A DNA stretch of 64,000 nt from an uncultured Granulosicoccus sp. (GTDB lineage: Bacteria; Pseudomonadota; Gammaproteobacteria; Granulosicoccales; Granulosicoccaceae), in the NCBI GenBank assembly GCA_937991945.1, contig CALKLO010000015.1, forward strand, positions 1-64,000. Reading direction: 5' to 3'. The notes beneath the pieces were generated by a model. The model was not told where the DNA came from, searched no databases, and was given only the letters and a program-made list of their open reading frames with translations. Position numbers and translations under genes: made by a program. Of this stretch, positions 2,830-12,312 are shown in pieces. How positions within the stretch are numbered: the stretch's first letter is position 1; every line of letters starts with the position of its first letter.

Positions 2830-5373
2830 TTAGGTTAACGTCAATATAGCTTCTAAATCGTATGGTTTTTCAAGAGTTATACAGTTATCAATTAGATTAA
2901 ATGGTGGATTAGACAGCTCAGAAATTCGCCCCGATGTCACAATGATTTGTTCTGCTAAGTGTTCGCGAAAACAGAGTGTTGCTAACTCCCAACCCGTCTG
3001 CCCGGCACCTAAATGTATATCGGTAAAAAGCAATGAGAAGGGGGAGCCGTCTATCAGAAGGCGACGGGCCTCTTCATAACTATCAGCTTGTGTTACTTCA
3101 AAACCAGCTGTTTGGAGTATCTTCACTGCATTGTCTAAAGTGCTAACGTCATTTTCAACCACCAATACAGATCTTTTAATTGCTGTCCATTTCTTCGGTT
3201 TGACTGCTAGTTCTGGTGTGATTTCGTTTGAATGTTGCAAAGACAAAGTGACCGTTGTTCCAACACCGACAGCACTATCGATTTGCATGTCTCCACCAGA
3301 CTGTTTAATAAAACCGTATACAATGCTTAAACCTAGGCCTGTGCCGCTACTGCCTCTGCGTGTGGAATAAAACGGCTCTACGGCCCGAATAACTGTCTCT
3401 GTATTCATCCCGCAGCCGTTGTCTTTCACATGAATAAGTAATAAATCATTGACTGACTGTTCGATGATTACACTTATTTCCCCGTTTCCCTCTATAGCAT
3501 GTGCGCTGTTCATACACAGATTCAACAAAGAGCTCTCTAGTTGCAACGGATCAATATACGTGATGAGGCGTTCATTGCTATTAACGATAGTTAACTCAAT
3601 TCGATTTCCAAGACTGAGCGAAATTAGTTCACTGACGCCATTTACTAAATCGTTTACTTCAACATGTTTAGGATTTAATCTCTGTTTTTTTGCAAATGCG
3701 AGCAGGCGATGGGTTAATGAGTTTCCCATGTCGACGGCATCCTCGATTCTTTCAACTGCAAGACGATGCTCTGACTCATTATGTCGCCGTGAAAGCACGG
3801 AGGGCAATGTCGCTTTGACAGCGCTGAGAACGTTATTAACATCATGCGCTACCTCACCTGTCAGCTGTCCAAGGCTTTCCAGCCGTTGAAAATGCTGCAA
3901 TCGCTCTTCCACACGACGTCGCTCAGTAGTATCAGAAAATAGCCATACTGAGCCACCATCAGGCAATGTGCTGATGCGTATTTCAAGGACATGACCTAAG
4001 GAGTTTTGAAGCTCCTTATAGTTTGAATTATGAATATTTCGATGTGAGTTTACTAATTCTGTGGTTACGGCGTTAACCTTGTTAGACAAATTACATCCAA
4101 TGGTTGCCTCTGATTCATTTCCAAAATGGGCAAGCAATTGATTTAACCTAGGGTTGAAGGCAAGCAATTCTCCGTCTGTGTTTGTTATAGCCACACCGTC
4201 GGTGATGTTGTTGAATGTGGACTCTAACAGAGCAGTTTTTTGGATGAGTTCTGTATGTAATATGTTGTGTTCTATTGCGTTTGCATGAAACACATTAAAT
4301 GCGCTTTGAAGTGCACCTAATTCGTCATTCCGACCTATTTCATCAGAGAGACTAATGGTCAAGTCCCCATCTGCCAAGCCGCTCATTGTGTTTGTGATTT
4401 TATTCAAACGCCTAATGACGGAACCTGAAATATAAAATGCAGAGACCAACGACAGTACAATGCTCCCAATTCCAAATAGGGCTACAAGAATTTTCGCATC
4501 TTGAATATTGGCGGTAGTCTCTGTTCGGCGCCGTGCAATCTCAGATTCTGATTTTTCAATAAGGCTGAGTATCTGAAAATTAAGATCATTGGCCTTAGCA
4601 CTAATGTTGCTTAGCAATCTGCGGGCAGAGACGTTGTGTTGCAATACTTTAAACCGTAACTTAAAGAGGCCCTGAGGCCCTTGTGCCAGTGAGTAGGCTT
4701 CGTTAACAGTACTCCAGATAAGTGCCGGACTATTTTTATAGATCGCTGTTGATGTCGATTCTAAGAAGCTTCGCTGGTATTCTCCAAGACTAAGAAGGCT
4801 GCTTGCATTAGATGCTGTTACTAGTATGTGTACAGCTAATTGTGCTTGACGAGCAGCATCTATCTGCTCTTCAGGTAAATTATCAGCTATAACGTTTACG
4901 AGCCTTTTATCCATCATAGATAGCTGTGCAAGGTGCACGCGAGTGTTGTCATCGTGGTCTGATAACACCCTGGATTGATCTATAAGTGCCTCTATTAACT
5001 CGCGCATTTCAGCAAGTGTTGAATGTATATTGGACGAGTAATCTATACCTGCATCTATAGTTACCTCTTGTAGTTTCCACGATTCGATCGTCTTATCAAT
5101 TGAGCTCAGTAGTTTGTTGCCTTCAGATTGCACCAAATACGAAGAGCTTTGATTAAGCAGGTAGGGTGCTGCGGTTGTAAATAGCGCACTTTGCTTAGTT
5201 AACTCATGTGATCGATTGACTTCATACAAAGTCGTATTATGGAGTTCTTCAAGTATTGTATTTGAGCGTGATAACCAATACCAAGATGATATTCCGATAA
5301 TAAGCGTTGAAAATGCTAGCGCCGCAACAGCAAGTAAAAGGCGAAACTTGATAGTGAATGAATGTAGCGACAT
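2830..5373 (-). CDS. Hybrid sensor histidine kinase (periplasmic sensor-HAMP-PAS-HK-REC)
   Basis: The 847-residue protein has a first membrane helix at about 11-33, a long, largely helical periplasmic region to about 290, and a second helix at about 294-316. HAMP (about 317-370) and PAS (about 385-485) domains follow. The phosphoacceptor is H510 in VAHDVNN, the HDxNN subtype. N (about 618-627), G1 DNGCGM (651-656) and G2 GTGLGLS (677-683) boxes are present. A receiver domain runs from about 735 to 847 with D785 and K836. There is no HPt domain, unlike TorS. It lies 17 bases downstream of its partner response regulator, and the pair diverges from an AfuABC-like importer. Sensing a sugar phosphate in the periplasm is an inference from that neighbourhood. 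Confidence 0.9.
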   Translation of the reverse strand: MSLHSFTIKFRLLLAVAALAFSTLIIGISSWYWLSRSNTILEELHNTTLYEVNRSHELTKQSALFTTAAPYLLNQSSSYLVQSEGNKLLSSIDKTIESWKLQEVTIDAGIDYSSNIHSTLAEMRELIEALIDQSRVLSDHDDNTRVHLAQLSMMDKRLVNVIADNLPEEQIDAARQAQLAVHILVTASNASSLLSLGEYQRSFLESTSTAIYKNSPALIWSTVNEAYSLAQGPQGLFKLRFKVLQHNVSARRLLSNISAKANDLNFQILSLIEKSESEIARRRTETTANIQDAKILVALFGIGSIVLSLVSAFYISGSVIRRLNKITNTMSGLADGDLTISLSDEIGRNDELGALQSAFNVFHANAIEHNILHTELIQKTALLESTFNNITDGVAITNTDGELLAFNPRLNQLLAHFGNESEATIGCNLSNKVNAVTTELVNSHRNIHNSNYKELQNSLGHVLEIRISTLPDGGSVWLFSDTTERRRVEERLQHFQRLESLGQLTGEVAHDVNNVLSAVKATLPSVLSRRHNESEHRLAVERIEDAVDMGNSLTHRLLAFAKKQRLNPKHVEVNDLVNGVSELISLSLGNRIELTIVNSNERLITYIDPLQLESSLLNLCMNSAHAIEGNGEISVIIEQSVNDLLLIHVKDNGCGMNTETVIRAVEPFYSTRRGSSGTGLGLSIVYGFIKQSGGDMQIDSAVGVGTTVTLSLQHSNEITPELAVKPKKWTAIKRSVLVVENDVSTLDNAVKILQTAGFEVTQADSYEEARRLLIDGSPFSLLFTDIHLGAGQTGWELATLCFREHLAEQIIVTSGRISELSNPPFNLIDNCITLEKPYDLEAILTLT

Positions 5374-5390: not shown

Positions 5391-6122
5391 CTATATTTTT
5401 GCGATAAGTGGCGATAGCACAAAGATATACCCTTTGCCTCGGCGAGTCTGTATGTGAATTGGTTTTGACGGTGCGACTTCTATTTTGCCTCTAAGCCGCA
5501 ATATCATCACATCAACTGTTCGGTCGACATACTGCAAAAGATCACTTCCGAGGTGGGTTAGTAATTCTGTTCGATCAATAACACGATCATGATGAGTGAC
5601 GAGATATTCCAGTAACCTGAACTCTGCATTGGTGAGTGATATTTCTCTCTCTTGCTTATCAAGTAAAAGCCTTTGTTCGAAATTTACTGTAAAATTTCCA
5701 AAGCGAATTGTTTGAATGTTTTCAACAGTGGCGTTGGATTTTGCTTGAGTAACTTGATTTCGGCGCTGAAGAGCGCGAATGCGAGCAATCAATTCCCGAG
5801 GATTGAACGGTTTAGAAACGAAGTCGTCTGCACCAGACTCTAGTCCTATTGCTTTATCTATTTCATCGCCTACGCCGCTTAACATAATGACTGGCGTTTG
5901 ATTAGTTTGATATATTTCTCGCGCTATATCTAAGCCGCTTTCATTGACTAATCGAAGATCGATTAGATAAAGATCAAAATTCGGACCTCGATGGTTATGA
6001 AGTTCATCACGGTTAGAAAACGTGTGTGGCTCGTATCCATGCTCGCGTAACAAACTCGCTAATGCCGTGCGAACTAACGGATCATCATCGATAACAGCAA
6101 TGTGTTGTACGTTGGTAGACAC
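5391..6122 (-). CDS. OmpR-family response regulator
   Basis: The 243-residue regulator has a receiver domain at 1-115 (acidic pocket IDDD, phosphoacceptor D55 in LYLIDLRL, K104 in SKPF) and a winged-helix DNA-binding domain at about 140-238 ending in TRRGKGYIF. It resembles TorR/OmpR-type regulators. The start is GTG at 6122; an in-frame stop lies six codons upstream and no ATG is available, so GTG is effectively forced. It is the first gene of a two-gene operon with the hybrid kinase downstream. The 310-base divergent region it shares with the afuA-like gene is the obvious place for its binding sites. Confidence 0.92.
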   Translation of the reverse strand: MSTNVQHIAVIDDDPLVRTALASLLREHGYEPHTFSNRDELHNHRGPNFDLYLIDLRLVNESGLDIAREIYQTNQTPVIMLSGVGDEIDKAIGLESGADDFVSKPFNPRELIARIRALQRRNQVTQAKSNATVENIQTIRFGNFTVNFEQRLLLDKQEREISLTNAEFRLLEYLVTHHDRVIDRTELLTHLGSDLLQYVDRTVDVMILRLRGKIEVAPSKPIHIQTRRGKGYIFVLSPLIAKI

Positions 6123-6432
6123 TGGAGTAAATCCACATTAGAAATGGACGGGAGACCCGTTTGATATTGACAGTATCGCAGATGCCTTGTTGATACCAAA
6201 GCTAAATCAAGGAATGAGATGTGAACACACCGTTCATTGTCGTTATCGAATAAATAAAATTGTAATATTTGTAACAAATAAAATATAACGAGTGAAATAC
6301 GGAGAATTTTGTTAAAAACGAAATATTTCTGTCATTCTGTAAATGGCTATCGACAACATCGGTGACTCATAATTTCTCTGGTGCATTGAACACACACCAA
6401 CAATGCATACAACAATAATTCTGGAGGAATAT
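6123..6432. promoter_or_regulatory. Divergent control region between the two-component system and the AfuABC-like operon
   Basis: This 310-base, AT-rich stretch has no credible gene. It contains a perfect 15-base palindrome at 6266-6280 and two adjacent 8-base near-repeats TTCTGTCA/TTCTGTAA at 6327-6342. A strong ribosome binding site CTGGAGGAA lies at 6421-6429 before the ATG at 6433. I could not place a convincing sigma-70 promoter by eye. Because the regulator and importer genes diverge from here, it probably holds both promoters and the regulator's sites. Confidence 0.55.
6266..6280. promoter_or_regulatory. Perfect 15-base palindrome TATTTGT-A-ACAAATA
   Basis: The sequence TATTTGTAACAAATA is a perfect 7-1-7 inverted repeat inside the divergent control region. 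This form suits a dimeric regulator. The region is AT-rich, so chance is not excluded, and OmpR-type regulators usually prefer direct repeats. Confidence 0.35.
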
Positions 6433-7458
6433 ATGAAAAAACGTACAGCACTTGGAATCACTCTGTTTGGGTTAGCAGTTCACAGTCAGGCGGTATTTGC
6501 TGCCGAGGAACTGAATGTTGTTTGTAGCGCTGAACAGTCATGGTGCGATCTTATGGTTGCAGGTTTTGAAGAGCAAACTGGCGTCGAAGTAGCCATGGTG
6601 CGAAAGAGTACTGGAGAGGCGTTGGCGCAAGTTAGAGCGGAATCGAAAAATCCTAAAATTGATGTGTGGTGGGGTGGTACAGGTGATCCGCATCTTATTG
6701 CTGCTTCGGAAGGTTTAACCCAAGCTTCAGGTGTGGATACAACTGATCTACTGGGCTGGTCTGTGAATCTGTCCAACATCTCTGATGGAAAAACAGTAGG
6801 GATATATGCCGGAGCGCTGGGTCTTGCGTATAACAGCGAGCTGCTTTCGGAGAAAAATATGAAAGCCCCGGCCTGTTGGAAAGATTTGGTTGACGTTCAA
6901 TATGCTGGGGAGATTCAAGTTGCAAACCCAAATAGCTCGGGTACCGCTTATACGGAGCTCGCTACGTTTGTACAATTGTTTGGTGAAGATGAAGCCTTTT
7001 CCCTACTGGCTGATATAGGCAAAAATGTTAATCAATATACTAAATCTGGTTCTGCTCCTAGTAAAGCTGCGGGTCGTGGTGAGACTGCTATCTCAATAGG
7101 TTTCATGCACGACATGGTGAAGCTGGCGTCGAGCGGTTTCCCATTAGTGATTGTCGCCCCGTGTGAGGGTACTGGTTATGAAGTTGGTGCTGTAAGCATT
7201 ATCGACAAAGCAAAAAACTTGGAGTCAGCCAAGAAGTGGGTACAGTATTCATTAGACCCTGCCACACAGTCACGTTCGGTAGAGGTAGGAGCGTATCAAG
7301 TTCCTTCAAACAGTAAGTCGACAGTTGCACCGGAGTCTCCTGATCTCGCTACGATCAAACTGATTGATTATGATTTTGCGACTTACGGCTCTACAGATAC
7401 GCGCGAACGCTTACTGAGTAGGTGGGATGCAGACGTAAAGAACGCACCTAAGAACTAG
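6433..7458 (+). CDS. afuA: AfuA-like periplasmic substrate-binding protein (probable sugar-phosphate binder)
   Basis: I place the start at the ATG at 6433, 3 bases after GGAGGAAT, rather than an upstream in-frame ATG at 6403, because translation from 6433 begins exactly at a signal peptide (MKKRTALG to VFA/AEEL). The 341-residue product is a Fe(III)/spermidine-type binding protein. Diagnostic stretches are RKSTGEAL, WWGGTGD, NPNSSGTAY and, in the C-terminal lobe, FMHD (H226, D227) and CEGTGYE (E250). As I recall, AfuA of Actinobacillus uses H205, D206 and E229 to hold hexose phosphates; the 24-residue His-to-Glu spacing is the same here. Gly/Ser/Thr-rich loops could hold phosphate. It is followed by a hairpin and then a fused permease, ATPase and HAD phosphatase. 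Iron binding is less likely, as the usual paired tyrosines are not evident. Confidence 0.8.
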   Translation: MKKRTALGITLFGLAVHSQAVFAAEELNVVCSAEQSWCDLMVAGFEEQTGVEVAMVRKSTGEALAQVRAESKNPKIDVWWGGTGDPHLIAASEGLTQASGVDTTDLLGWSVNLSNISDGKTVGIYAGALGLAYNSELLSEKNMKAPACWKDLVDVQYAGEIQVANPNSSGTAYTELATFVQLFGEDEAFSLLADIGKNVNQYTKSGSAPSKAAGRGETAISIGFMHDMVKLASSGFPLVIVAPCEGTGYEVGAVSIIDKAKNLESAKKWVQYSLDPATQSRSVEVGAYQVPSNSKSTVAPESPDLATIKLIDYDFATYGSTDTRERLLSRWDADVKNAPKN

Positions 7459-7470
7459 TCCTTGTCGTTT

Positions 7471-7500
7471 TATGGCACTGTGCTTTCGCACGGTGCCATA
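7471..7500 (+). terminator. Intergenic hairpin after the afuA-like gene
   Basis: TATGGCACTGTGC and GCACGGTGCCATA form a 13-base-pair stem (one G-U pair) with a TTTC loop. It starts 13 bases after the binding-protein stop and lies before the permease gene. No T-run follows, so it is more likely a 3'-end stabilising or processing element than a full terminator. Confidence 0.7.
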
Positions 7501-7538
7501 GGGTCGTTTGCCTCAACTGTTGCACTTGTCGGACTATC

Positions 7539-9749
7539 ATGAAGAATAAAAGCTTGCTGTGGCTTCTCTTTGGAGCTACTGGTGCCTGCCTATTACCTTG
7601 GTATGCACTAGAGGACGGATTCTGGGCATTCACCTGGATAAGAAGCCTGAGTGATCCAGAGTACCCGTCAGCCCTTGTGTTGATTCTTGAACAATCTCAT
7701 TGGTGGTTAATGCCACCATTAGTAGCCTTAGTTGCAGGTTTTATCGCAATCATGTTACCCATGGGGCGTAAGGGCCTGTCTCGTATGCTCATAGCGGTGA
7801 GTTTATTGGGTTCGTTTTTCGTTATCGTTCAAGGGTTTGCGATTGGTCTAAATGAACCTAAAATATTTCTCTCACTGTTAGAAGGTAGTTCAGCAGCTAA
7901 TGGGCAGCCGGGTCTTGGCGTGGGCGCGATAATGCTGATTGCCTCATTCTTGTATTTGCTAACTATCGGAATTGCTGGTCTTAAAAAGGGCACGGCCGAT
8001 ATATTTATAATTGGACTCATTGGCACCATAATCACGTTAGTCGGTGTATTTGTATTTTTTCCTATTGCACATGTGTTGATCACTGCATTTGAAACAGCTG
8101 ATGGAGGATACGGTGCATCCAGATTCTTCAGTCGATATTTTTCAGGTGAGGTTTGGGGGCTGAATTGCCTTGTTGGTGACGGCGTATGTGGTCCTGCAAT
8201 TAACTCGGTGTTTCTTGCGACCATGACGGGCGTGGGTACCACCTTGCTAGGGCTAACGTTCGCCCTAATAGCTACTAGAACTCGTTTCCGAGCAAAGCGC
8301 CTGTTACGAATATTAACTGTGCTGCCCATTATCACGCCGCCTTTCGTTATAGGGCTGGCATTGATCCTACTGTTTGGTCGTGCAGGTGTTGTAACAGAGT
8401 GGTCTTACGCGTTATTTGATATTGAAAAATCCAGATGGCTCTATGGGTTTACCGGTGTCTACCTATCTCAATTATTGTCGTTCACGCCAATAGCCTTTTT
8501 GGTCATGATTGGTGTGGTGGAAGGTGTTAGTCCTTCAATGGAGGAGGCGTCGCAAACTATGCGTGCCACTCAATGGCAGACTTTTACGCAGGTGTCTCTG
8601 CCTCTAATGCGTCCTGGATTAGCCAATGCATTCTTGCTTGGATTTATTGAAAGTTTGGCTGATTTTGGTAACCCGTTGGTTCTCGGAGGAGACTTCTCTG
8701 TGTTGTCGACGGAGATCTACTTTGCAATTGTTGGTGCCGTGGCTGATACATCCAGAGCAGCCGTGCTGGGAATGGTTCTATTGACATTAACCATTACAGC
8801 ATTTTTGTTTCAACGCTGGTGGCTTGGGAAAAAATCGTATGCAACGGTGACCGGAAAAGCTGATTCAGGACAAAACAGTGGGCTTAATTCTGGTTTGAAA
8901 TGGGCGTGTTATTTAGTCGCTATACCCTGGGCGGTCTTTACAGCAATTGTATATTGCATGATTGTGTATGGTAGCTTTGTCAAACTGTGGGGTTACGACA
9001 ATTCCTTTACGTTAGAGCATTACATAAGTACGTTTGGCGTAAAAACTGAAGGTGGTCTTCGCTTTGTCGGTTCGGCATGGGACAGCTATATCACTACGTT
9101 GCAAATAGCATCAATCGCAGCACCTTTAACAGCGTTACTAGGGTTGTTAACAGCTTATGTGCTAGTTCGACAAAGATTTGCTGGAAAGGATCTCTTCGAG
9201 TTCAGTACGATGTTGAGTTTTGCGATTCCGGGTACGGTGGTTGGTATTAGCTACATTTTGGCATTCAATGTCCCACCCATCGAGCTTACGGGTACTGGAA
9301 TTATTTTAATTATTGCGTTCATGTTTAGAAACATGCCCGTAGGTGTTCGTGGTGGTATAGCGGCAATGTCGCAGCTTGATAAAAGTCTAGATGAGGCGTC
9401 GATAACACTAGGTGCTAATAGTTTCACTACGCTAAGGCGAGTTATTGCACCGCTCTTGGGACCTGCAATTCTTGCAGCGCTTATATACAGTTTCGTGCGA
9501 GCCATTACATCCGTCAGTGCTGTTATTTTTCTTGTGAGTGCAAAGCACAATATGGCGACGTCATTCATTGTCGGTAGAGTTGAGAATGGAGAATTCGGCA
9601 TTGCAATAGCTTATTCAACCGTTCTCATTATCACTATGCTGGCAGCTATCCTGTTGCTCCAGTTAATAGTCGGTAAACGCAAGTTGCGTAAAGACACACG
9701 CGTACAGAACACGGAAAATAAAACCCGATTAGTACAAGCAAACATATAG
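7539..9749 (+). CDS. afuB: AfuB-like ABC permease, two permease domains in one chain
   Basis: The 736-residue integral membrane protein carries an N-terminal region of about 170 residues with four or five helices, then two binding-protein-dependent permease domains. Their EAA loops are visible as EEASQTMRATQWQTF...LPLMRPG and DEASITLGANSFTTL...APLLGPA. The fused FbpB/AfuB layout means one chain can form the whole channel. A periplasmic loop before the first domain contains two cysteines (LNCLVGDGVCG). It is co-directional with the binding protein upstream and the ATPase 15 bases downstream. Local GC is low compared with genes outside the islet. Confidence 0.88.
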   Translation: MKNKSLLWLLFGATGACLLPWYALEDGFWAFTWIRSLSDPEYPSALVLILEQSHWWLMPPLVALVAGFIAIMLPMGRKGLSRMLIAVSLLGSFFVIVQGFAIGLNEPKIFLSLLEGSSAANGQPGLGVGAIMLIASFLYLLTIGIAGLKKGTADIFIIGLIGTIITLVGVFVFFPIAHVLITAFETADGGYGASRFFSRYFSGEVWGLNCLVGDGVCGPAINSVFLATMTGVGTTLLGLTFALIATRTRFRAKRLLRILTVLPIITPPFVIGLALILLFGRAGVVTEWSYALFDIEKSRWLYGFTGVYLSQLLSFTPIAFLVMIGVVEGVSPSMEEASQTMRATQWQTFTQVSLPLMRPGLANAFLLGFIESLADFGNPLVLGGDFSVLSTEIYFAIVGAVADTSRAAVLGMVLLTLTITAFLFQRWWLGKKSYATVTGKADSGQNSGLNSGLKWACYLVAIPWAVFTAIVYCMIVYGSFVKLWGYDNSFTLEHYISTFGVKTEGGLRFVGSAWDSYITTLQIASIAAPLTALLGLLTAYVLVRQRFAGKDLFEFSTMLSFAIPGTVVGISYILAFNVPPIELTGTGIILIIAFMFRNMPVGVRGGIAAMSQLDKSLDEASITLGANSFTTLRRVIAPLLGPAILAALIYSFVRAITSVSAVIFLVSAKHNMATSFIVGRVENGEFGIAIAYSTVLIITMLAAILLLQLIVGKRKLRKDTRVQNTENKTRLVQANI

Positions 9750-9764
9750 CACAGGACCGAAACC

Positions 9765-10826
9765 ATGAATACGAAATCAGCGAGCGTAAAGCTCGATAAC
9801 GTGACAAAGAATTATGGAGCGGTCACAGCTGTTATCAATCTAACATTAGCCATTAAGGCCGGAGAGCTCGTTACTTTACTAGGTCCGAGTGGTTGTGGAA
9901 AAACCACCATGCTACGTATGATCGCGGGGCTTGAAGAAGTCACAAGCGGAAGTATTCAATTCAACGATCTCGATGTGACGGACCAGTCTGCAACTTACAG
10001 AAACGTGGCTATGGTGTTTCAATCGTATGCATTATTCCCGCATATGTCGGTGCTTGATAATGTGTCCTATGGGCTATCTGTATCAGGGTTCGAGAAAAAG
10101 AAAATTAAAGCGAAAGCCCTTGCTGGATTAGCCATGGTTGGATTAACGGGGTATGAGAGCAGGATGCCAAGTGAGTTATCCGGGGGCCAACAACAACGGG
10201 TTGCGGTTGCTCGTGCTGTTGTACTGGAGCCTGAAGTGTTACTGTTTGATGAGCCGCTATCAAACCTTGATGCCAAGCTTCGCCGCCATGTGCGTGAAGA
10301 GATTCGGCAGATACAACAAGAACTAGGGCTCACGGCAGTGTATGTAACTCACGATCAAGAAGAAGCTATGGCCGTATCAGATAAAATCGTTGTTATGCAA
10401 CGTGGCGAGATAGCGCAGGCCGGATCCCCGTCTGATCTATATCAATCGCCTGAGTCAGCATTTATTGCTGATTTTATTGGCGATGCGAATGTAATTCCCT
10501 GTACGACGGTCTCCACTGATAAGAATACTGCGGTTATCTCGGTTGATGGAGTTTTGATAAATTCAACAGCAGCAAAGACTATTTCAACGCCTTTGAATTT
10601 GGTTGTTCATCCACAAAATATCCGTGTTTCCAATGAAGAGAGCACGACATCATTGGCGGGAAAAATTCAGCACGCCGCTTTTTTAGGGAGTCACATTGAG
10701 TACGAAGTTAAAACTGAGGTTGCCACGTTGTTTGTAATAGACAATCAAATGCAATCGAGATATCAGAAAGATGATTCTGTGTTTGCACATTTGCCTAAAA
10801 ATAAAACCTCACTAGTGCCTGCATAA
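9765..10826 (+). CDS. afuC: AfuC-like ABC transporter ATP-binding protein
   Basis: The 353-residue ATPase has Walker A GPSGCGKT (40-47), Q-loop Q86, signature LSGGQQQR (138-145), Walker B VLLFDEP (158-164) and switch H196. About 110 C-terminal residues resemble the TOBE regulatory fold of FbpC/PotA-type ATPases. It lies directly after the fused permease and before a HAD phosphatase, so it powers that importer. The family name alone would allow iron or polyamine; the AfuA-like binding protein and the phosphatase favour sugar phosphate. Confidence 0.88.
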   Translation: MNTKSASVKLDNVTKNYGAVTAVINLTLAIKAGELVTLLGPSGCGKTTMLRMIAGLEEVTSGSIQFNDLDVTDQSATYRNVAMVFQSYALFPHMSVLDNVSYGLSVSGFEKKKIKAKALAGLAMVGLTGYESRMPSELSGGQQQRVAVARAVVLEPEVLLFDEPLSNLDAKLRRHVREEIRQIQQELGLTAVYVTHDQEEAMAVSDKIVVMQRGEIAQAGSPSDLYQSPESAFIADFIGDANVIPCTTVSTDKNTAVISVDGVLINSTAAKTISTPLNLVVHPQNIRVSNEESTTSLAGKIQHAAFLGSHIEYEVKTEVATLFVIDNQMQSRYQKDDSVFAHLPKNKTSLVPA

Positions 10827-10858
10827 CCGCCAACATCGGTGAAATATAGACTATTCAA

Positions 10859-11464
10859 ATGGTAAAATATGACATTGGCAACTATTCGTTCAAAGCAATA
10901 ATATTTGATTGCGATGGCACGTTAGTTAATAGCGCGCCGTTACATTATTCTGCTTTTAAAGTGGCACTTGAAAAGCAGGGCGCCGTTTTAACTTATGCAT
11001 GGTATATGGACAGGCTAGGCCTATCACGACAGGGGTTAATAGCCGACTATTGTGTTGCAAATTCTACGGTTTTAGATATACCTCGCGCTATTGCGGAGAG
11101 CGAGGCTCAGTTTCTGAATAGGGCGGGGGAGTTATCGGAAATACCTGAAGTGATGGATATCGCCAGAAATCACTTTCGTAAAATACCCATGGCGGTGGCC
11201 TCCAGCGGCCAAAGACTCAGCGTTGAACAGTCACTTGAGAGTATAAATGCTTTGCATCTGTTCGATTTTGTACTGTGTTCAGATGACGTCTCAGCTTGCA
11301 AGCCAGATCCAGAGATTTATTTTGCGGCGGCGCAAAAAATACAGGTAAAAATATCAGAGTGCCTTGTCTTTGAAGATACCCATGAAGGTCTTGAATCAGC
11401 CACCTTAGCTGGCGCAAAGGCTGTCGATGTGCGCACGTTTGCGTCCATTTACGATAACAACTGA
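10859..11464 (+). CDS. HAD-superfamily sugar-phosphate phosphatase, YqaB-like
   Basis: The 201-residue HAD enzyme of the beta-phosphoglucomutase-like subgroup shows motif I FDCDGTLVNS (nucleophile D17, acid D19), motif II in VASSG, motif III KPDPEIY and motif IV FEDTHEGLESA. The overall run and the ending AVDVRTF closely resemble E. coli YqaB, a fructose-1-phosphatase. A helical cap occupies about residues 25-85. It is the last gene of the importer operon, 32 bases after the ATPase. Its likely job is to dephosphorylate the imported sugar phosphate, or to limit its build-up. A mutase role is possible for the subgroup. Confidence 0.82.
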   Translation: MVKYDIGNYSFKAIIFDCDGTLVNSAPLHYSAFKVALEKQGAVLTYAWYMDRLGLSRQGLIADYCVANSTVLDIPRAIAESEAQFLNRAGELSEIPEVMDIARNHFRKIPMAVASSGQRLSVEQSLESINALHLFDFVLCSDDVSACKPDPEIYFAAAQKIQVKISECLVFEDTHEGLESATLAGAKAVDVRTFASIYDNN

Positions 11465-11574
11465 AATATGGATATCGTCGTAATCAGTGCCCTCTTTGTC
11501 TAGAGAGCGCTATATGTTTGTTAGCTAAAACTGGCACACATTCGAAAAATACATGTTGTCGTAAGATGCACTGC

Positions 11575-12312
11575 TTAGCGCATCTTAAAACCTTGATCAT
11601 CCAAGAAACCGCGCATGTGAGGACGTGATTCCTTACCCACCAGTTTCTTCATTTCATCGGTCCACTGACTCACTTTGGTGCCGCCAGTTCGCGTCTGGTA
11701 GTAATGCCCTAGGCGTTCGTTGTAGTCGTCAAAGTGTGCATCTTGCTGGGCATCGGAGTAGGTGTCCTGCATAAGCACAGCGTCTACTGATAAGCGTGGT
11801 TTGATATCTGGGTCTTGTGCTGGGTGGCCTAGGCATAAGCCGAAGACAGGGTAGACCTGCTCAGGTAAGCCCAGTAGCTCAGATACCTTGGCAGGGTTGT
11901 TGCGCAAACCACCGATATAGCAAATGCCTAAGCCTAAAGATTCGGCAGCTATGACGGCGTTTTGCGCAGCAAGGCCAACATCAACGGTGGCAATTAAAAA
12001 GTGCTCTGTCATGCCTTGTTCAAAGTCGCCGCCTGCACGTGCACAGGCTGCGCCACTTCGGCGTAAGTCTGCACACCACACCATAAAAACTCCGGCTTCA
12101 GTAACCCACGTTTGTCCACCGGCAAGCTCTGCCATGCTTTCCCGCGTGGCCATGCTGTTCACTTGTATAACGGTGACCGCTTGAACATTACTAGAGGTAG
12201 CTGCCGCCTGACCCGCCGACACAATTTCTCGTACCTGTTCGTCGGTTACCGCTTCGTCCGTAAATTTACGAATAGAGCGATGTGACTTGAGGAGTTCGAT
12301 AGTTGCATTCAT
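11575..12312 (-). CDS. nfsA: Oxygen-insensitive NADPH nitroreductase NfsA
   Basis: The 245-residue FMN enzyme matches NfsA nearly end to end: IELLKSHRSIRKFTDE at the N terminus, AAESLGLGICYIGGLRNN in the middle, PVFGLCLGHPAQDPDIKPRL, and KESRPHMRGFLDDQGF at the end. It reduces nitroaromatics and quinones with NADPH in the cytoplasm. It lies downstream of an aldehyde dehydrogenase on the same strand with a 59-base gap and may be co-transcribed. The start is ATG at 12312. GC here is back to that of the wider window, which marks the right edge of the low-GC islet. Confidence 0.93.
   Translation of the reverse strand: MNATIELLKSHRSIRKFTDEAVTDEQVREIVSAGQAAATSSNVQAVTVIQVNSMATRESMAELAGGQTWVTEAGVFMVWCADLRRSGAACARAGGDFEQGMTEHFLIATVDVGLAAQNAVIAAESLGLGICYIGGLRNNPAKVSELLGLPEQVYPVFGLCLGHPAQDPDIKPRLSVDAVLMQDTYSDAQQDAHFDDYNERLGHYYQTRTGGTKVSQWTDEMKKLVGKESRPHMRGFLDDQGFKMR

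Follow-up and report, generated by a model that had tools for sequence, protein, structure and literature searches.

An AfuA-type periplasmic binding protein of Granulosicoccus, probably serving sugar-phosphate import, encoded beside a divergent two-component system

Among the closest described systems is AfuA of Actinobacillus pleuropneumoniae (PDB 4R72-4R75). As stated in the available portion of its report (PMC4546632), His205, Asp206 and Glu229 form the contacts to the sugar and Ser37 and Thr150 those to the phosphate, and the substitutions H205A, D206A and E229A abolish the binding of glucose-6-phosphate (G6P). VcA0625 of Vibrio cholerae has a solved structure titled periplasmic G6P binding protein (PDB 8X1A), and a partial literature search found no paper in which VCA0625 and glucose-6-phosphate appear together. 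The pyridoxal-phosphate (PLP) binder P5PA (PDB 6WCE) is, according to the available portion of its authors' report (PMC8427247), found solely in Pasteurellaceae; that portion gives a membership threshold of over 65% identity and also supplies a list of 19 pocket contact positions in AfuA. HptA of Staphylococcus aureus, a further G6P binder, is named in the available portion of PMC13419708, and the PhnS2 proteins (NCBIfam model TIGR03261) are putative binders of 2-aminoethylphosphonate (2-AEP).

The window, a 64,000-nucleotide stretch of a contig from an uncultured Granulosicoccus sp., encodes on its forward strand, at positions 6433 to 7458, a class II periplasmic solute-binding protein of the AfuA type (341 amino acids plus stop), assigned from its open reading frame, sequence and fold. 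A GGAGGAA stands before the ATG at 6433, and there is an alternative in-frame ATG at 6403. A likely signal peptide was recognized by eye at approximately residues 1 to 24, and pLDDT is below 50 at residues 1 to 21 of the AlphaFold2 model. The model, built from the window protein and 45 relatives, has a mean pLDDT of 90.9, and its top fold match is apo AfuA (4r72; Z 43.2, rmsd 1.4, 315 residues), followed by liganded AfuA chains and VcA0625 (Z 36.5 to 37.1, rmsd 4.2 to 4.3). With an rmsd of 4.2 to liganded AfuA and 1.4 to apo AfuA, the model fits the open form. P5PA follows at Z 34.9, and ferric binders are lower.

With phmmer against the PDB, the best match is VcA0625 (8x1a, 266.6 bits), followed by AfuA (4r72, 262.6 bits) and P5PA (6wce, 214.6 bits), after which scores drop to 43.1 bits and lower. 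In sequence, the solved structures closest to the window protein thus comprise two G6P binders and one PLP binder; ferric binders trail by a wide margin in sequence and also rank lower in fold. VcA0625 is about 42% identical to the window protein and matches it at six of seven compared sites, with serine for threonine at the seventh. AfuA, at 41% identity, shares the fold, the phosphate loops, an equally spaced His/Asp/Glu triad and the afuABC gene order (PMC4546632, available portion). Sequence, model and gene order together suggest that the product is probably the periplasmic component of an ABC importer of the AfuABC type, with hexose or heptose phosphates of the G6P/F6P/S7P class as its substrates.

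The sequence-only reading had proposed that H226-D227 and E250 preserve the spacing of H205, D206 and E229 in AfuA. These residues are present as numbered, with 24 residues from His to Glu as in AfuA (205 to 229), and the AfuA residues and roles that it named agree with the available portion of PMC4546632. The correspondence is one of position as well as of spacing, as HMMER aligns the triad (codons at 7108 to 7113 for H226-D227 and 7180 to 7182 for E250, all on the forward strand, as are those below) to both 4r72 and 8x1a with no gap nearby; chain numbers in 4r72 are those of the paper plus 2. The Ser/Thr/Gly loops proposed as phosphate holders were likewise recovered, with T60-G61, T83, S169-G170-T171 and S205-G206 aligning with S37-G38, T60, S148-G149-T150 and S184-G185 of AfuA. 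The phosphate contacts S37 and T150 thus correspond to T60 (6610 to 6612) and T171 (6943 to 6945), again with no gap nearby in the HMMER alignment, and the ring contacts Y103 and Q269 to Y125 (6805 to 6807) and Q289 (7297 to 7299). All five mutagenised AfuA contacts are kept or conservatively changed, the one change (S37 to Thr) being a residue that also occurs in P5PA. At the 19 listed pocket positions (PMC8427247, available portion), 15 are identical, one is changed from serine to threonine and three differ (T11, G36 and I186 in AfuA; E34, S59 and S207 in the window protein). An HD-x22-E arrangement is uncommon: when the protein was shuffled after removal of residues 1 to 23, it turned up at any position in 149 of 20,000 shuffles.

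Conservation was counted in 88 distinct sequences, obtained by merging identical rows from 93; L081 to L085 were excluded as copies retrieved a second time, fragments or different proteins, with L085 not checked against L001. H226, E250 and T171 occur in all 88 and D227 in 87, although invariance by itself is no rarity among these sequences, applying in full to 87 of 341 columns. The T60 site holds threonine in 79 sequences and serine in 9. The sole relative without aspartate at the D227 site, L038, has glycine there and lies on a long branch of the tree. Four cysteines (C31, C38, C148 and C244) are invariant in the 88 sequences and present in AfuA and VcA0625. P5PA does not have the last two, one of which is located in the loop preceding E250, and a disulfide may brace that loop.

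The two ring-contact sites, Y103 and Q269 in AfuA numbering, read Y/Q in 40 sequences, H/N in 47 and Y/A in one, with neither Y/N nor H/Q observed. The H/N sequences form a subclade of 47 AfuA relatives that includes L008, L016 and L022. Repeated co-variation between Y/Q and H/N was considered and dropped, since one change suffices on a quick tree (support 73); the shift is therefore a single event in these rows and supplies no independent evidence.

Some names given to relatives in databases would make the window protein a ferric-iron binder of the FbpA type, a reading consistent with the shared fold, with the FbpA-type chains ranked further down in the fold comparisons (Z up to 31.8, as opposed to 43.2 for AfuA), and with plasmid records in which relatives or their permeases are called iron transporters. 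The protein is only 13 to 20% identical to ferric binders, however, as against 41% to AfuA, and nearly all relatives carry the sugar triad; AfuA, too, originally carried the name of an iron binder, which it was later shown not to be (PMC4546632, available portion). The searches gave no residue-level alignment to a ferric binder across the region of the iron-ligand tyrosine pair, and their sequence and fold scores favor AfuA. From these scores we regard iron as an extremely improbable ligand. The triad, the phosphate contacts and the nearest structures support the earlier choice of hexose phosphate in place of iron and make sugar phosphate a much better guess, and from sequence and model the system is very probably a sugar-phosphate pump rather than an iron pump.

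The best NCBIfam model for the protein is TIGR03261 (phnS2), which might suggest a binder of 2-AEP, but the score of 188.8 bits is far under the curated cutoff of 392.75. The residues point the same way. The H, D and E of the triad sites do not occur together in any of 14 more distant binding proteins taken from the window genome and related genomes: seven (L103 to L109, 30 to 34% identity) keep the phosphate loop NPNSSGT and have F, R and D at the triad sites, four (L110 to L113, 28 to 31% identity) have D, A and V, and three (L114 to L116) align poorly or have other residues. Two of the 14 were scored against PhnS2: L103, the one scored among L103 to L109, exceeds the cutoff with 506.8 bits, and L110 is under it with 163.1. 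L103, the relative that passes the cutoff, shares the fold and phosphate loop of the window protein but has F, R and D where the latter has H226, D227 and E250, and there is very little chance that 2-AEP is the ligand.

A pyridoxal-phosphate binder of the P5PA type is also highly improbable. P5PA is the third-best solved relative, resembles the window protein in fold and phosphate loop, and has counterparts of H226 and Y125, but its triad sites read H, A and A, in contrast to the D227 and E250 of the window protein, and two of the four conserved cysteines are absent from it. Identity between the two is 36%, below the threshold of the P5PA authors, who, in the available portion of PMC8427247, confine the protein to Pasteurellaceae. 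The absence of the triad from the distant binders and from P5PA, a sharper test than conservation among relatives, indicates that it characterizes a subfamily and does not simply come with the fold. It is not the sole way to bind G6P, as the S. aureus HptA family (6lki) has Q, D and N at the aligned positions.

Downstream of the binding-protein gene and on the same strand are genes for an AfuB-type fused permease (7539 to 9749; 736 amino acids, with two BPD_transp_1 stretches) and an AfuC-type ABC ATPase with a TOBE domain (9765 to 10826; 353 amino acids), and, 32 bases after afuC, for a HAD-IA phosphatase nearest to the beta-PGM/YqaB subfamily (10859 to 11464; 201 amino acids). Neighborhoods were surveyed at the best 80 of 276 relatives, which derive from Granulosicoccaceae and Alphaproteobacteria plus one contig filed under Acidimicrobiales; these loci are related and not independent, such that all locus figures are counts and not probabilities. 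The afuB gene adjoins afuA in all 80 loci, and afuC is present in 77. The recurrent unit consists of afuABC with a divergent two-component system and, often, a phosphatase gene; the kinase (probably TorS-like), OmpR-type regulator and phosphatase genes that adjoin afuABC in the window set it apart from the A. pleuropneumoniae system. No description of this arrangement of afuABC, kinase/regulator and phosphatase genes was found in the titles or abstract openings covered by a partial literature search.

The phosphatase displays, by eye, the DxDGT, Lys and ED motifs; it passes TIGR01509 (62.6 bits, cutoff 29.4) and scores 97.1 bits with TIGR02009, below the subfamily cutoff of 153.35. In 35 of the 59 loci with both flanks readable, a phosphatase gene directly follows afuC or the kinase gene: 28 match the HAD-IA enzyme of the window, six are HAD-IIB and one (L017) is another HAD-IA. 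The HAD-IIB genes, two of which were scored (L022 and L052; the others are L043, L053, L054 and L056), stand after afuC in place of the HAD-IA gene. In the other 24 loci, including the close relative L002, no phosphatase gene was found by tblastn with the window HAD protein and inspection by eye of open reading frames of at least 110 amino acids, a search that possibly missed other phosphatases.

Among the four plasmid regions examined, out of 408 matching records, a HAD phosphatase gene adjoins the kinase gene in two, and one region of the four is without annotation. In a Neorhizobium plasmid (L099), an inositol-monophosphatase-type gene follows afuC and a LacI regulator replaces the two-component system; nearby are genes for a phosphate:Na+ symporter, additional copies of afuB and afuC, and ugp genes. 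Two loci (L008 at 3944 to 4369 and L031 at 4112 to 4474) have, beside the kinase gene, a cupin resembling the C-terminal region of proteins in which mannose-1-phosphate guanylyltransferase is fused to mannose-6-phosphate isomerase.

For an importer of hexose or heptose phosphates, the phosphatase genes at 35 of the 59 loci count in favor and the 24 loci without one count against. G6P can enter glycolysis as it is, so a phosphatase beside the pump would be odd if plain G6P were the import. The pump may instead carry a different phosphorylated compound, such as another sugar phosphate or a polyol phosphate, bound through the same triad and made usable by the neighboring phosphatase. The three kinds of phosphatase genes found beside afuABC are consistent with this, as are the three pocket positions unlike AfuA and the joint Y/Q to H/N change in 47 relatives, which indicates that pockets in this family do change. 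Against it, the window protein retains all the residues at which substitution in AfuA abolishes the binding of G6P, as well as the AfuA-like tyrosine and glutamine, and we judge this alternative unlikely. For the preferred hexose/heptose phosphate class, the changes at E34, S59 and S207 mean that the exact sugar phosphate is not fixed by the pocket.

Divergent from afuA, on the reverse strand, are genes for an OmpR-type response regulator (5391 to 6122; 243 amino acids) and a hybrid histidine kinase (2830 to 5373; 847 amino acids) that comprises a periplasmic helical sensor, HAMP, PAS, HisKA, HATPase and receiver domains. The HisKA and receiver domains score under Pfam's cutoffs, and no HPt domain was detected in the kinase at E 0.001. 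The regulator gene is adjacent in 74 of 80 loci and absent from 5 of the 78 having enough upstream DNA; the kinase gene was found in 73 of 80. The kinase set retained 68 sequences after L007 and hits shorter than 600 residues were dropped.

The sensor, modelled from the window kinase and 56 relatives, forms a long helical bundle (pLDDT 84.3). TorS sensor domains rank first among its fold matches (3i9y, with Z 15.5 and an rmsd of 2.5 over 220 residues, at about 10% identity), followed by a designed bundle (Z 15.4) and by McpS and PilJ (Z 12.9 to 14.1), in a comparison for which the tool itself warns that helical models often reach Z 14 by chance. Foldseek returned no match at E 0.001 or better, and a profile search against PDB sequences returned only coiled-coil noise (best E 0.1). 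From the model, the sensor is likely, but not proved, to be TorS-like, and the pairing of a hybrid kinase with an OmpR-type regulator is a further resemblance to TorS/TorT/TorR. TorS reads the binding protein TorT, whereas McpS takes its ligand directly. TorT was not among the matches listed for the window AfuA in sequence and fold searches. Pfam assigns 4HB_MCP_1 to 16 and TarH to 34 of 57 sensor domains, with short N-terminal matches in that of the window. Across these 57 sensors, E198 and R201 are invariant and R240 is nearly so, residues that would suit direct anion binding too.

Alignment of the divergent intergenic regions points to a putative response-regulator site at 6260 to 6276 of the forward strand, TTGTAATATTTGTAACA, with the core GTAAYAnnnGWAAC. 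This 14-base core occurs in 22 of 74 divergent intergenic regions, which total 23,508 bases, and has two further matches in the remaining 1,113,842 bases. When the seven loci used for its derivation are excluded, the site remains in 15 of 67, some of which are near-copies (e.g., L011 to L014); base shuffles predict 0.045 hits, and a reversed control pattern has no match in these regions and three elsewhere. The strict site is missing in 52 of the 74 loci, 11 of which have a looser form; L086 and L088 fall outside the alignment owing to their orientation. Allowing at most one mismatch, the 17-base form has 6260 to 6276 as its sole match in the 3.83-Mb genome, but uniqueness is weak by itself because the reversed control also matches once. 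With two mismatches allowed, the number of matches in the window was equalled in 8 of 100 shuffles. A CATAAT at 6368 is conserved in several rows of the intergenic alignment and was seen only there. A promoter and terminator scan of 6050 to 11600 did not exceed shuffles (9 versus 10.3 and 4 versus 4.9, respectively).

Of 48 genomes from the order, five, the window genome included, encode binding proteins at least 80% identical to that of the window. The window genome contains a second afuABC (L094, contig C44) whose AfuA (9411 to 10520, reverse strand) is 56% identical and keeps the triad, and no TorS-like kinase match was found near it. The contig filed under an Acidimicrobiales genome (L005) carries a Granulosicoccaceae version of the locus, with 82% identity and a position beside L004 on the tree, and its placement in that genome is probably a binning error.

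In the mechanism that we propose, H226, D227 and E250 would hold the sugar, and T60, the S169-G170-T171 loop and S205 would hold the phosphate. The two lobes would close upon the ligand, which AfuB and AfuC would then import at the cost of ATP. The adjacent HAD phosphatase may remove the phosphate, and the divergent two-component system may switch the operon through the putative site at 6260 to 6276. We infer that AfuA could be an input to the kinase. A single sensing-and-feeding unit is then possible, if rather doubtful: loaded, closed AfuA would act both as scoop and as signal to the TorS-like kinase, the regulator would turn on afuABC at GTAAYAnnnGWAAC, and the phosphatase would free the sugar. 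If this were so, an input like that of TorT and TorS would have been built upon another class of binding protein.

Relatives of the window protein bear iron or 2-AEP names in databases, and the residue comparison shifts this protein to probable sugar-phosphate uptake. That step is not new, because the AfuA authors had already counted alphaproteobacterial homologues (121 alpha/beta hits in the available portion of PMC4546632). The fresher part is the neighborhood: the conserved kinase and regulator, the intergenic site that recurs among loci and the phosphatase gene offer a route to learning which compounds these cells detect and consume. The H/N pocket subclade, with its 47 members, provides a natural comparison of specificity.
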